A stretch of 49,918 nt of DNA from Chamaesiphon sp. 336R_metabinner_41. Its GTDB lineage: Bacteria; Cyanobacteriota; Cyanobacteriia; Cyanobacteriales; Chamaesiphonaceae. How positions within the stretch are numbered: the first letter of the stretch is position 1; each line of letters opens with the position of its first letter. Position numbers and translations under genes: made by a program. The notes beneath the pieces are model-generated. The model ran no database searches. It saw nothing but the letters and a program-made list of their open reading frames with translations, and was not told where the DNA came from. The stretch lies in assembly GCA_025359915.1 (NCBI GenBank), contig JANYDE010000086.1, positions 1-49,918 on the forward strand, read 5' to 3'. Positions 25,565-27,920 of the stretch are shown piece by piece.

Positions 25565-25620
25565 ATTCAAACCGACAGGTAGGGGTAATTCATGAATTAC
25601 CCCTACCTGTCGGTTTGAAT
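25565..25620. terminator. 56-bp perfect palindrome, probable bidirectional terminator
   Basis: The left arm 25565-25592 is exactly reverse-complementary to 25593-25620 with no spacer. It lies between the converging rbfA and TetR-InsA genes and includes the last codons (NIQTDR) and TAG stop of the latter. An extra direct copy of GTAGGGGTAATTC starts at 25557. Confidence 0.75.
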
Positions 25621-26529
25621 ATTTCTGACCCAATTAATCACCGTATTGTGGGAGACTCCAGTACTGCGCTCGATTTCTCGAAAACTGATTCCCTGCGCGT
25701 GGAGATCGAGACATTTTTGCCTAATCTGTAGAGGATATCCTCTTTCGACATAGCGATCGACAAATTGCCGCCCACATCCTCTACATATATAACGTTGCTT
25801 GTCCTGCTGTCGTCCATTTTTCGCCACTCGATCGCTCTGACAATCTGGACAAATCATCAACTGATTGTGCATGACGAGTAAATGGTCGCCGATGTGTGGA
25901 TTAAGATAACCATAGAGGACATCCTTAATTTCAGCATAGATCTCCTGCCGATATTTTTCATCATTTTTGAGGGCGTTCGGCACTAAACCCTGGACGATGT
26001 TATGAGCAACTTCTGACAATAATTCACTTTTGGCTATACTCAAATTAGGATTGCGTTGGCGATAAAAATTGGCATGTCTTTTGTATGAGATCGACTGAAG
26101 AGTAGGAATATCAGCCATCATACTCTCCAGTCCCCCGATCGGCTGTAAGTAATACTGCAAAACGATACAGCGAGGAATCGGCTGCTCGAAATATACCGCA
26201 TGGGCATCGATATATTCGCTAATACCTCGATCGAGTGGAAAGTTAATATCCTGAGCAAAAAAGTTTGCCTCGATCATCTCTGTCAGCCGCATATACTCGG
26301 CAAATATAGCGTTAAAAATGGTTAATTTGTCTGGAAAAAACTGATAAATAGAACCAACTGCTGTGTCAGATCGATCGGCTATTTGTTGGATTGTCGCCGC
26401 TGCAAATCCTGCCTCGGCAAAAACTTCCGCAGCCGCGATGATAATCTTCTCTACCCGCTGTTTCCCACGTTTTTGCTGGGGTTGGCGACGGAGATTTTTG
26501 TCGCTTGACAAAGATGAGGAGTTGCTCAT
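25603..26529 (-). CDS. TetR-family regulator fused to an InsA-like zinc ribbon/HTH
   Basis: A 308-residue chimera. Residues 1-about 215 form a TetR repressor: helix-turn-helix AEAGFAAATIQQIADRSDTA then VGSIYQFFPDK, followed by an all-helical ligand/dimer domain. From about Met220 the sequence becomes the N-terminal part of an IS1-type transposase (InsA): a zinc ribbon with CPDC (Cys227, Cys230) and CRGC (Cys249, Cys252), GRQF, then an HTH (FREIERSTGVSHNTVINWV). No DDE catalytic domain follows. One open frame, no stop between. It is divergent from the P450 gene across 38 nt, which hold a palindrome. I infer an autorepressor that also controls the P450; the added domain may be a second DNA-binding unit. 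Confidence 0.88.
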   Translation of the reverse strand: MSNSSSLSSDKNLRRQPQQKRGKQRVEKIIIAAAEVFAEAGFAAATIQQIADRSDTAVGSIYQFFPDKLTIFNAIFAEYMRLTEMIEANFFAQDINFPLDRGISEYIDAHAVYFEQPIPRCIVLQYYLQPIGGLESMMADIPTLQSISYKRHANFYRQRNPNLSIAKSELLSEVAHNIVQGLVPNALKNDEKYRQEIYAEIKDVLYGYLNPHIGDHLLVMHNQLMICPDCQSDRVAKNGRQQDKQRYICRGCGRQFVDRYVERGYPLQIRQKCLDLHAQGISFREIERSTGVSHNTVINWVRNIQTDR

Positions 26530-26534
26530 AAACT

Positions 26535-26549
26535 AATTGTGTCACAATT
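26535..26549. promoter_or_regulatory. Palindromic operator candidate between tetR-like and P450 genes
   Basis: AATTGTG-T-CACAATT, perfect 7-bp arms, within the 38-nt divergent intergenic region. Its position and symmetry fit a TetR-family operator controlling both genes. Confidence 0.6.
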
Positions 26550-26567: not shown

Positions 26568-27920
26568 ATGGCTAATAAACTCAAACCCGCTGATTTGATG
26601 CCTGGTAGTTTTGGATTACCGTTCATCGGGCAAACGATCGGCATCCTCGCTAAACAAGAACTATTTTATTGGCAACAGTACCAACGGTACGGCAATATTT
26701 TCAAAATATCACTACCAGAGGCGATCGGCTTTGGTAAATGTGCTTGTTTAATTGGCCCAGAGGCTAACCAATTGGTGTTAAAAGATGCCGCCGAGAAGTT
26801 ATCATCACGATTGGGGAATCGATCGCTAGAACCGATCCTCAGTAAAGATATGGTGTTGTTACAAGATGGGGCAGAGCATCGAGCTAGTCGTAAGCTAATC
26901 TTGCCGATATTTCACCACCAAGCGATCGCGGCTTACTTTGATACGATTCAGGCAGTGGCGACGGAAACAGTGGCAACTTGGGGCAATCAGGGCACGATTA
27001 ACCTAGAAACTGAGATGCGGAAACTGACACTGGCGATCGCAGTCAGGACTTTTTTAGGTAGTAATAAGACTGAGGAGATTGATCGAGTATCCCAGTGGTA
27101 TGTCACTTTAGTTAATAGTCTGAACGGGATGGTGAAGTGGGATAATTCGCTCACTTTTTACGGACGCGGACAAGCGGCGCGGCGCAAAATTAGCGAGTAT
27201 ATTCGGCAGATTATTAAAGATCGAATCGAGCTTGGCGATTTAGAAAAGTCCAAAGATGTTATCGGTTTCTTGATGAGTATTGTCGATGAAGATGGGAATA
27301 AGTTTACCGAAACCCAAATTATCAATCAAGCGATTGGCTTCCTCTTTGCCGCCCATGAAACCACATCGAGCCTGATGAGTTGGTTGATGTTTGAATTGGG
27401 CAATCGTCCCGAATGGCAGCAGAAATTACGCGCCGAACTGCAACAAGTGGTAGGTAATGAGCCGTTAAAGCTGCAACATCTTCGCCAACTTCCCCAACTG
27501 AGTAATGTCCTCAAAGAAGGTGAACGTCTTTATCCACCAGTTCACGCACTGAGCCGAGCGGTGGTAGAAGATATTGAATATGCAGGATACACAATTCCGG
27601 CGGGTTGGTATGCAATTATTTTCCCCAGTATGACACATCGAATGCCCGAAATTTACCAAGATCCCGATGCCTTCGATCCCGATAGATTTGCGCCACCGCG
27701 TGAGGAAGATAAGAAATATCCTTATTCCTTGATTGGGTTTGGTGGCGGTGCTCATAGTTGCATCGGCGTGGAATTTGCCAATATGGAAATGAAGATAATT
27801 CTTGCTACGTTGCTGCAAAATTACGATTGGACAGTGACACCGACAACTGCGGAAATTGCCCCAGTGCGCCGCCCATTTACGATGCAGAAGCAGCTAAGAG
27901 CAACATTTGTAAAAATATAG
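26568..27920 (+). CDS. Cytochrome P450, CYP120-like
   Basis: A 450-residue soluble P450. The haem-binding loop FGGGAHSCIGVEFANMEMK places the axial Cys at residue 398; the I-helix motif is AAHETTSS, the ExxR motif lies in LKEGERLYPPVHALSRAV, and PERF-like DPDRFAPPREED follows. The N-terminus (MPGSFGLPFIGQTIGIL) and overall pattern resemble cyanobacterial CYP120, which hydroxylates retinoids. The actual substrate is unknown. ATG 26568 is the natural start. Control by the adjacent divergent TetR-type protein is inferred. Confidence 0.92.
   Translation: MANKLKPADLMPGSFGLPFIGQTIGILAKQELFYWQQYQRYGNIFKISLPEAIGFGKCACLIGPEANQLVLKDAAEKLSSRLGNRSLEPILSKDMVLLQDGAEHRASRKLILPIFHHQAIAAYFDTIQAVATETVATWGNQGTINLETEMRKLTLAIAVRTFLGSNKTEEIDRVSQWYVTLVNSLNGMVKWDNSLTFYGRGQAARRKISEYIRQIIKDRIELGDLEKSKDVIGFLMSIVDEDGNKFTETQIINQAIGFLFAAHETTSSLMSWLMFELGNRPEWQQKLRAELQQVVGNEPLKLQHLRQLPQLSNVLKEGERLYPPVHALSRAVVEDIEYAGYTIPAGWYAIIFPSMTHRMPEIYQDPDAFDPDRFAPPREEDKKYPYSLIGFGGGAHSCIGVEFANMEMKIILATLLQNYDWTVTPTTAEIAPVRRPFTMQKQLRATFVKI

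Follow-up and report, generated by a model that had tools for sequence, protein, structure and literature searches.

How does a TetR-type repressor come to end in the DNA-binding half of a transposase, and what might such a protein do? The question arises in a 49,918-nucleotide stretch of DNA from Chamaesiphon sp. 336R_metabinner_41, hereafter the window, in which a preliminary description had noted a TetR regulator continuing into an InsA-like zinc ribbon and helix-turn-helix (HTH), without a DDE domain and in one uninterrupted frame. The open reading frame and its Pfam and NCBIfam matches confirm this organization (Table 1). Residues 1–215 form the TetR unit, and an InsA-type module follows in frame.

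The TetR_N match scores 48.8 bits against a Pfam gathering score of 24, and it is the only TetR_N stretch that Pfam finds in the fusion protein, so a second TetR unit is absent. Within the module, the Pfam matches to Zn_ribbon_InsA (residues 227–252, 23.7 bits) and HTH_23 (residues 268–304, 24.3 bits) fall below their cut-offs of 26.1 and 24.6; the IS1/IS1595 zinc domain NF050000 lies above its own (46.7 against 28) and marks a CxxC...CxxC ribbon, whose four cysteines are invariant across 29 aligned ribbon-bearing members. The NCBIfam IS1 transposase model matches residues 227–306 (E 3.7e-23; 82.5 bits, below the cut-off of 100) at model positions 1–81 of 199 only, and the DDE half is therefore absent. 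The module had been described as starting at Met220; this methionine exists, but in our alignment the InsA homology begins five residues later, at Met225, the position at which stand-alone InsA has its initiator Met.

The AlphaFold2 model of the fusion protein (mean pLDDT 81.7, pTM 0.62) has TetR helices over residues 18–213, a three-strand ribbon with strands over 235–257 and a three-helix HTH over 267–307; the linker at 221–223 has a pLDDT below 50. The TetR fold finds 129 PDB matches at E≤0.001, and the best 50 of these 129 are all TetR-type regulators. Modelled alone, the InsA-type module reaches a pLDDT of 79.8 and has no Foldseek match at E≤0.001; its weak matches are to Pax paired domains and the Tc3 transposase for the HTH and to RNA polymerase subunits for the ribbon.

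Table 1. Features of the tetR-insA locus and its divergent neighbour (window positions).
Feature	Position	Strand	Basis or remark
56-bp perfect palindrome at tetR 3′ end	25565–25620	no strand	repeated 28-bp core provides tetR stop codon
tetR-insA fusion ORF	25603–26529	−	308 aa, single uninterrupted frame
InsA-type HTH, residues 266–305	25615–25734	−	NF033558 to residue 306; HTH_23 slightly under cut-off; three helices
InsA-type zinc ribbon, residues 225–258 (C227, C230, C249, C252)	25756–25857	−	NF050000 above cut-off; Cys invariance
ATGCACAAT, codons 220–222, probable IS1 left terminal repeat remnant	25864–25872	−	12 nt before first Cys codon
TetR ligand-binding/dimerisation part, residues 76–213	25891–26304	−	TetR_C_15 149–209; helices to 213
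TetR N-terminal HTH, residues 29–75	26305–26445	−	PF00440, E 6.1e-13; helices in model
−35-like TTGACA of divergent P450	26505–26510	+	inside tetR 5′ coding region
−10-like TAAACT of P450	26529–26534	+	touches tetR start codon; spacer 18
15-bp palindrome AATTGTGTCACAATT, 7-nt arms, probable TetR operator (predicted) near P450 transcription start	26535–26549	no strand	
Divergent cytochrome P450, probable target gene	26568–27920	+	nearest solved structure CYP120 (2ve3); synteny

The 3′ end of the gene coincides with a repeat. Its core palindrome, GTAGGGG(Y)AATTCATGAATT(R)CCCCTAC, occurs in 40 exact copies in the same genome (51 with up to two mismatches) and provides the tetR stop codon in the window, in G002 and in G005, where the arms differ from those in the window and still pair. 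The arms are prolonged by inverted flank copies that are specific to each locus: at 13 of 18 sites (16 of the 40 exact ones and 2 in other genomes) they extend perfectly by 4–14 nt, with differing letters.

Relatives bear out the fusion, and the same domain order is kept in other cyanobacterial genera. Full-length homologues in Chamaesiphon and its family are 56–83% identical, which shows that the fusion is not a chance product, and those in Mastigocoleus and Tolypothrix are 41–42% identical; the fusion also occurs in four other genomes of the order (G524, G620, G642, G664). It is present in six of the nine genomes of the genus, the three others being 77–89% complete, and in eight of the eleven of the family (G000–G010). 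With a profile of the TetR part alone, the subfamily was found in 83 of 387 genomes of the order and in 15 of 386 sampled from the phylum, counting the window's own genome in each, and it is set off from other TetR proteins by a gap in score (E about 1e-100 against 1e-56).

Deduplication on the last 170 residues left 99 distinct members and 5 outgroup sequences, a collected set and not a census; the broken copies L202 and L203 stand outside the 99. Behind the TetR unit, 4 members have no tail (class A), 59 have the ribbon only (class B), 18 have ribbon and HTH (class C, to which the window copy belongs) and 18 have a winged-helix-like tail (class D). Because 59 of the 99 carry a ribbon without the HTH, many lineages can dispense with the HTH, and the common function does not require it. 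Neither Pfam (above cut-off) nor the PDB has a match to the class D tail, and one such sequence weakly matches HxlR and ArsR-type models; we therefore call it only ‘winged-helix-like’. This unrelated tail (SRRTLQRD; for example, L082 3966–4847) is found in two separate clades, and ACTTGCGA lies upstream of 11 of the 18 class D genes. One ribbon-only relative, plasmid-borne and beside a Rieske gene, carries just the annotation of a TetR regulator. Apart from the window copy, no intact member was found in the window's own genome. There, a Rieske-linked paralogue (L004 1411–1596) is left as two pieces of 96 and 87 bp around a deletion, and a fragment with a stop in its HTH (L006) is probably a third copy.

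If the fusion were a recent accidental read-through, its tail should be decaying. Over nine Chamaesiphonaceae pairs, dN/dS was 0.05–0.10 for the TetR HTH, 0.08–0.34 for the ligand part, 0.07–0.12 for the ribbon and 0.03–0.24 for the InsA-type HTH; three saturated cells were excluded, and with many dS values approaching or exceeding 1 the ratios are rough. Judged by these comparisons, the module is under purifying selection and the tail is not decaying. We found no support for a recent read-through, and with the fusion retained across many genera under such selection we give this explanation, which the preliminary description had named as the outcome that would overturn its own reading, next to no chance of being correct.

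The linker appears to record where the module came from. Ends starting GGCGTTGC or GGCATTGC are found at 10 of 16 cyanobacterial IS1-type loci, with the consensus GGCGTTGCACAATTAAGGG. The consensus of inverted-repeat-supported IS1 ends, computed beforehand, equals TTGCACAAT, and ATGCACAAT in the window's linker matches it at eight of nine positions; no position of the gene more than 35 nt away is equally good. In a scan of all 18 class C and 59 class B genes, 11 of the class C genes match TTGCACAAT at at least 7/9, and 7 of the 18 at at least 8/9, always 12 or 21 nt before the first Cys codon, against 0.36% and 0.018%, respectively, of 55,452 other positions in class B and C genes; the rows are related, so these match rates are not probabilities. 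One class B gene of the 59 reaches 7/9, and among the seven class C genes below it is L040, whose linker holds an insertion. Directly before the module, the fused proteins read LHNKVM, MHNQLM, LHNDMM and similar. The linker of the fused genes looks like the scar of an IS1 left terminal repeat, a trace that strengthens the earlier proposal that a regulator had captured a transposon module. The 9-nt linker trace is all that was seen of IS1 terminal inverted repeats around the fusion gene; a position weight matrix of IS1 ends finds nothing in the window that scores above 12 bits.

IS1 copies with a matching right end carry TTGCAYAAT at a comparable place, 12 nt (L050, L056, L058) or 15 nt (L052) before the first Cys codon. 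In the first three, GGCGTTGCATAAT encodes Leu-His-Asn in frame with InsA, and a stop codon comes next; in L052, which has two ends, GGCGTTGCACAAT reads Ala-Leu-His-Asn and the frame is open up to the InsA Met, the only such case among IS1 copies with a supported left end. Four stand-alone InsA-type genes (L042, L043, L046 and L049, near 4001) have an open LHN-like leader; they are not shown to be IS1 because they have no matching right end, and they may be decayed IS1 copies or domesticated InsA repressors. In Microseira wollei, an ECF sigma factor (L047 3242–4267) has a C-terminal InsA module, before which the trace recurs at 12 nt as GCTTTGCACAATCGAGGGATG (ALHNRGM). The trace is missing before the InsA modules of a SWIM-type protein (L033) and of a Pseudanabaena plasmid Dcm methyltransferase (L204).

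IS1-type parts also occur in other settings. The plasmid-borne DNA cytosine methyltransferase just named (L204 511–1740, NC_019690.1) ends in an IS1-type ribbon and HTH, perhaps a second DNA-binding unit. An IS1-type ribbon is found in an O-methyltransferase of the window's own genome (L005), with an HTH in the SWIM-type protein, and in L208–L212, which comprise four related long proteins (L208–L210, L212) and one unidentified 489-aa protein. Two short elements with IS1-type ends, of 123 and 168 bp (G000:C6 5906–6028 and C18 10323–10490), are too short for a transposase gene.

A broader scheme can be offered tentatively, as something possible more than expected. Cyanobacterial IS1 elements would be donors of DNA-binding domains: with their left repeat translated in frame (Leu-His-Asn) on into InsA, an in-frame insertion near a gene's 3′ end would provide a DNA-binding tail, either directly or after the loss of one stop codon. 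The TetR-InsA and ECF sigma factor-InsA proteins would be separate outcomes of this process that share a scar, and the former would be a ligand-gated repressor whose two unlike DNA-binding units bridge the operator and a second site.

Whether the module was captured once or several times is a matter for the trees. The deepest split in the TetR-domain tree has members of classes B, C and D on either side, and the least numbers of label changes are 7 for B, 7 for C, 2 for D and 4 for A, counts that cannot separate loss of the HTH from gain. A tree of the HTH alone places the 18 fused HTHs and 21 stand-alone InsA HTHs on opposite sides (support 85/90, and 84% of 200 bootstrap trees); it took 21 of 24 stand-alone InsA sequences, three without a complete ribbon having been dropped, and at least 4 of the 21 have no matching right end. 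In a tree of the whole module including the ribbon, support for a single capture is weak (68/0). As the fused HTHs do not sit among different stand-alone InsA proteins, these trees are better read as one old capture after which the HTH was lost several times, a best fit and not a proof. The rival reading, in which new IS1 insertions behind TetR genes supplied the HTH on several separate occasions, draws on the scatter of class C in the TetR tree, where seven changes suit gains as well as losses, on the near absence of the scar from class B and on the Microseira wollei sigma factor, which shows that such fusions can recur with the same scar. However, besides the separation of fused from stand-alone HTHs, a V-M-K-V-M-like junction is common to class B and several class C members, and we regard repeated gain as unlikely. 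Past the stop codon, no convincing HTH remnant was seen in 20 class B genes, one class A gene or one class D gene, a result that for the 20 class B genes is neutral between the two readings. There are also signs of module exchange within the genus: relative to G005, the window is 85% identical in the HTH and 55% in the ligand part, relative to G003 it is 72% and 84% identical, respectively, and synonymous distances agree with this pattern.

The gene neighbourhood points to a target. Upstream of and divergent from the regulator, 85 of the 99 members have a Rieske oxygenase gene and 10 a P450 gene, and in 4 none was seen (two of these at contig ends). Among solved structures the window's P450 is closest to CYP120 (E 5.2e-60), and the Rieske protein weakly matches 3-ketosteroid hydroxylases. 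All seven class C copies of the window's clade have a P450 upstream. In G006 it is split by an apparent transposase gene; in G010 the intact regulator lies 1050 bp from the P450, a kind of distance that is affected by the start codon chosen, which varies among rows, and an N-terminal remnant of a second regulator lies beside the P450.

Promoter-like sites (at least 9/12 to TTGACA and TATAAT, spacer 16–18, up to 140 bp before the conserved Arg-Arg codons) are present on the oxygenase strand in 83 of 85 regions, against 15.3 expected from mononucleotide shuffles; the scan covered 85 of the 99 regions, 14 having no anchor motif, and the rows are related. The window's region taken alone is at chance level, with 3 sites found and 3.3 expected. 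Conserved DNA at the tetR start was considered as a second operator, and the divergent promoter accounts for it better. The short palindrome AATTGTGTCACAATT, which a palindrome listing with a minimum arm of 10 omits, differs by a single change in G003, G006 and G002, is eroded in G005 and was not seen in G009 and G010. It occurs exactly twice in the 4.2-Mb genome. As candidate further targets, the second copy (C104) and the best copy with one mismatch (C72) were set aside, both lying inside ORFs. Within 400 bp upstream and on either strand, AAATTGTGA is found at 42 of 59 class B, 4 of 18 class C, 0 of 18 class D and 1 of 4 class A genes. The matrix of IS1 ends, built from 18 ends, gives no clear enrichment over shuffles in the upstream regions of any of the four classes.

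Taken together, we think it probable that the protein is a TetR-type repressor of its divergent oxygenase that bears the InsA half of an IS1 captured long ago, probably once, and that it represses the CYP120-like P450, is released by a ligand and gains an additional DNA contact from the InsA unit. From the scar and the HTH tree, we infer that an IS1 would have inserted near the 3′ end of a tetR gene with its left terminal repeat in frame (TTG-CAC-AAT, Leu-His-Asn). Translation would then have run on through the repeat into InsA, the DDE half having since gone. Later, most lineages would have lost the HTH and a few the whole tail, and an unrelated winged-helix-like tail would have come to occupy the same place in two clades. 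The palindrome, which lies just behind the −10-like element of the P450 and beside the tetR start, suggests that the window protein represses both the P450, by steric block, and itself; we predict that it binds there as a dimer and leaves on binding a ligand, which the family and the type of target suggest would be hydrophobic. The InsA unit would make a second contact with DNA, by which binding is strengthened or positioned.

What the captured part contributes is the point on which other readings differ. According to the available part of one article (PMC12428005), E. coli IS1 InsA is a repressor whose zinc finger and HTH are both required for binding to the terminal repeat; by this measure the binding unit is complete in class C but not in class B. 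It is possible, if rather doubtful, that the captured part no longer binds DNA, the TetR unit alone regulating while the ribbon (and HTH) serves folding, dimerization or contact with a partner protein. The 59 ribbon-only members, cut at a similar point, fit such a role, as do this two-part requirement and the HTH-less ribbons of other cyanobacterial proteins such as the O-methyltransferase and the long L208–L210 and L212. Yet class C has kept its HTH at the low dN/dS given above, and several HTH residues (I70, E71, T80 and W84 in A5 numbering) are invariant across 11 fused and 12 stand-alone modules. Of still lower probability, and in our view improbable, is that the fusion binds IS1 or MITE ends genome-wide and thereby silences IS1, like InsA itself, or links scattered sites to the TetR signal. 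The own genome has 33 IS1-end-like sites, compared with 3 when the pattern is reversed, a single control and no distribution; two pairs of the 33 make up 123- and 168-bp elements with 8-bp target duplications, and the fused HTH is close to that of stand-alone InsA. However, across 29 genomes such sites are equally common where the regulator has the B or D form, a search of the own genome with the fused protein brings up few IS1-like places, and the P450 promoter has no IS1-end-like site, its best score of 8.0 bits, against 15–28 for real ends, being within noise. A ligand-released repressor of the P450 with an added InsA contact remains the reading that we prefer.

The significance of the locus lies in a bacterial capture of a transposon module that appears to be old and under selection and to occur widely in cyanobacteria, and whose linker seems still to show a legible trace of the terminal repeat. 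This legibility makes the proposed route (insert, read through, keep the binding half) testable. The same place behind the TetR unit can, within one regulator subfamily, hold nothing, a ribbon, a ribbon and HTH, or an unrelated tail. TetR proteins, InsA and the capture of transposases by eukaryotes are known; the TetR-InsA fusion may be new and its route of origin general. In the open-access literature, subscription journals being outside the scope, we found no report of a TetR protein fused to an IS1 module or of this gene pair.

The fusion protein shares with TetR/AcrR repressors (PF00440) the N-terminal HTH, the all-helical ligand part, the divergent neighbour and a palindrome by the promoter, but it has in addition a C-terminal zinc ribbon and HTH of transposon type. 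With InsA of IS1 it has in common the ribbon, the HTH, the initiator Met and the terminal-repeat trace in front; it differs in having neither the DDE half nor flanking terminal repeats, and in standing behind a TetR unit. Mce3R of Mycobacterium, a double TetR protein, likewise combines two unlike HTHs in one TetR-type polypeptide, although, as far as the accessible portion of its description goes (PMC11667970), both of its units are TetR-like and none is from a transposon. In animals and plants, host genes with the DNA-binding parts of transposases have become transcription factors, as excerpts of two articles relate (PMC10027918, PMC13306707). SETMAR-type eukaryotic fusions, in the section available (PMC9062482), join a host protein to a transposase that keeps its DNA-binding part; compared with these, the TetR-InsA protein is bacterial, has the DNA-binding half alone and apparently arose with the terminal repeat read in frame.
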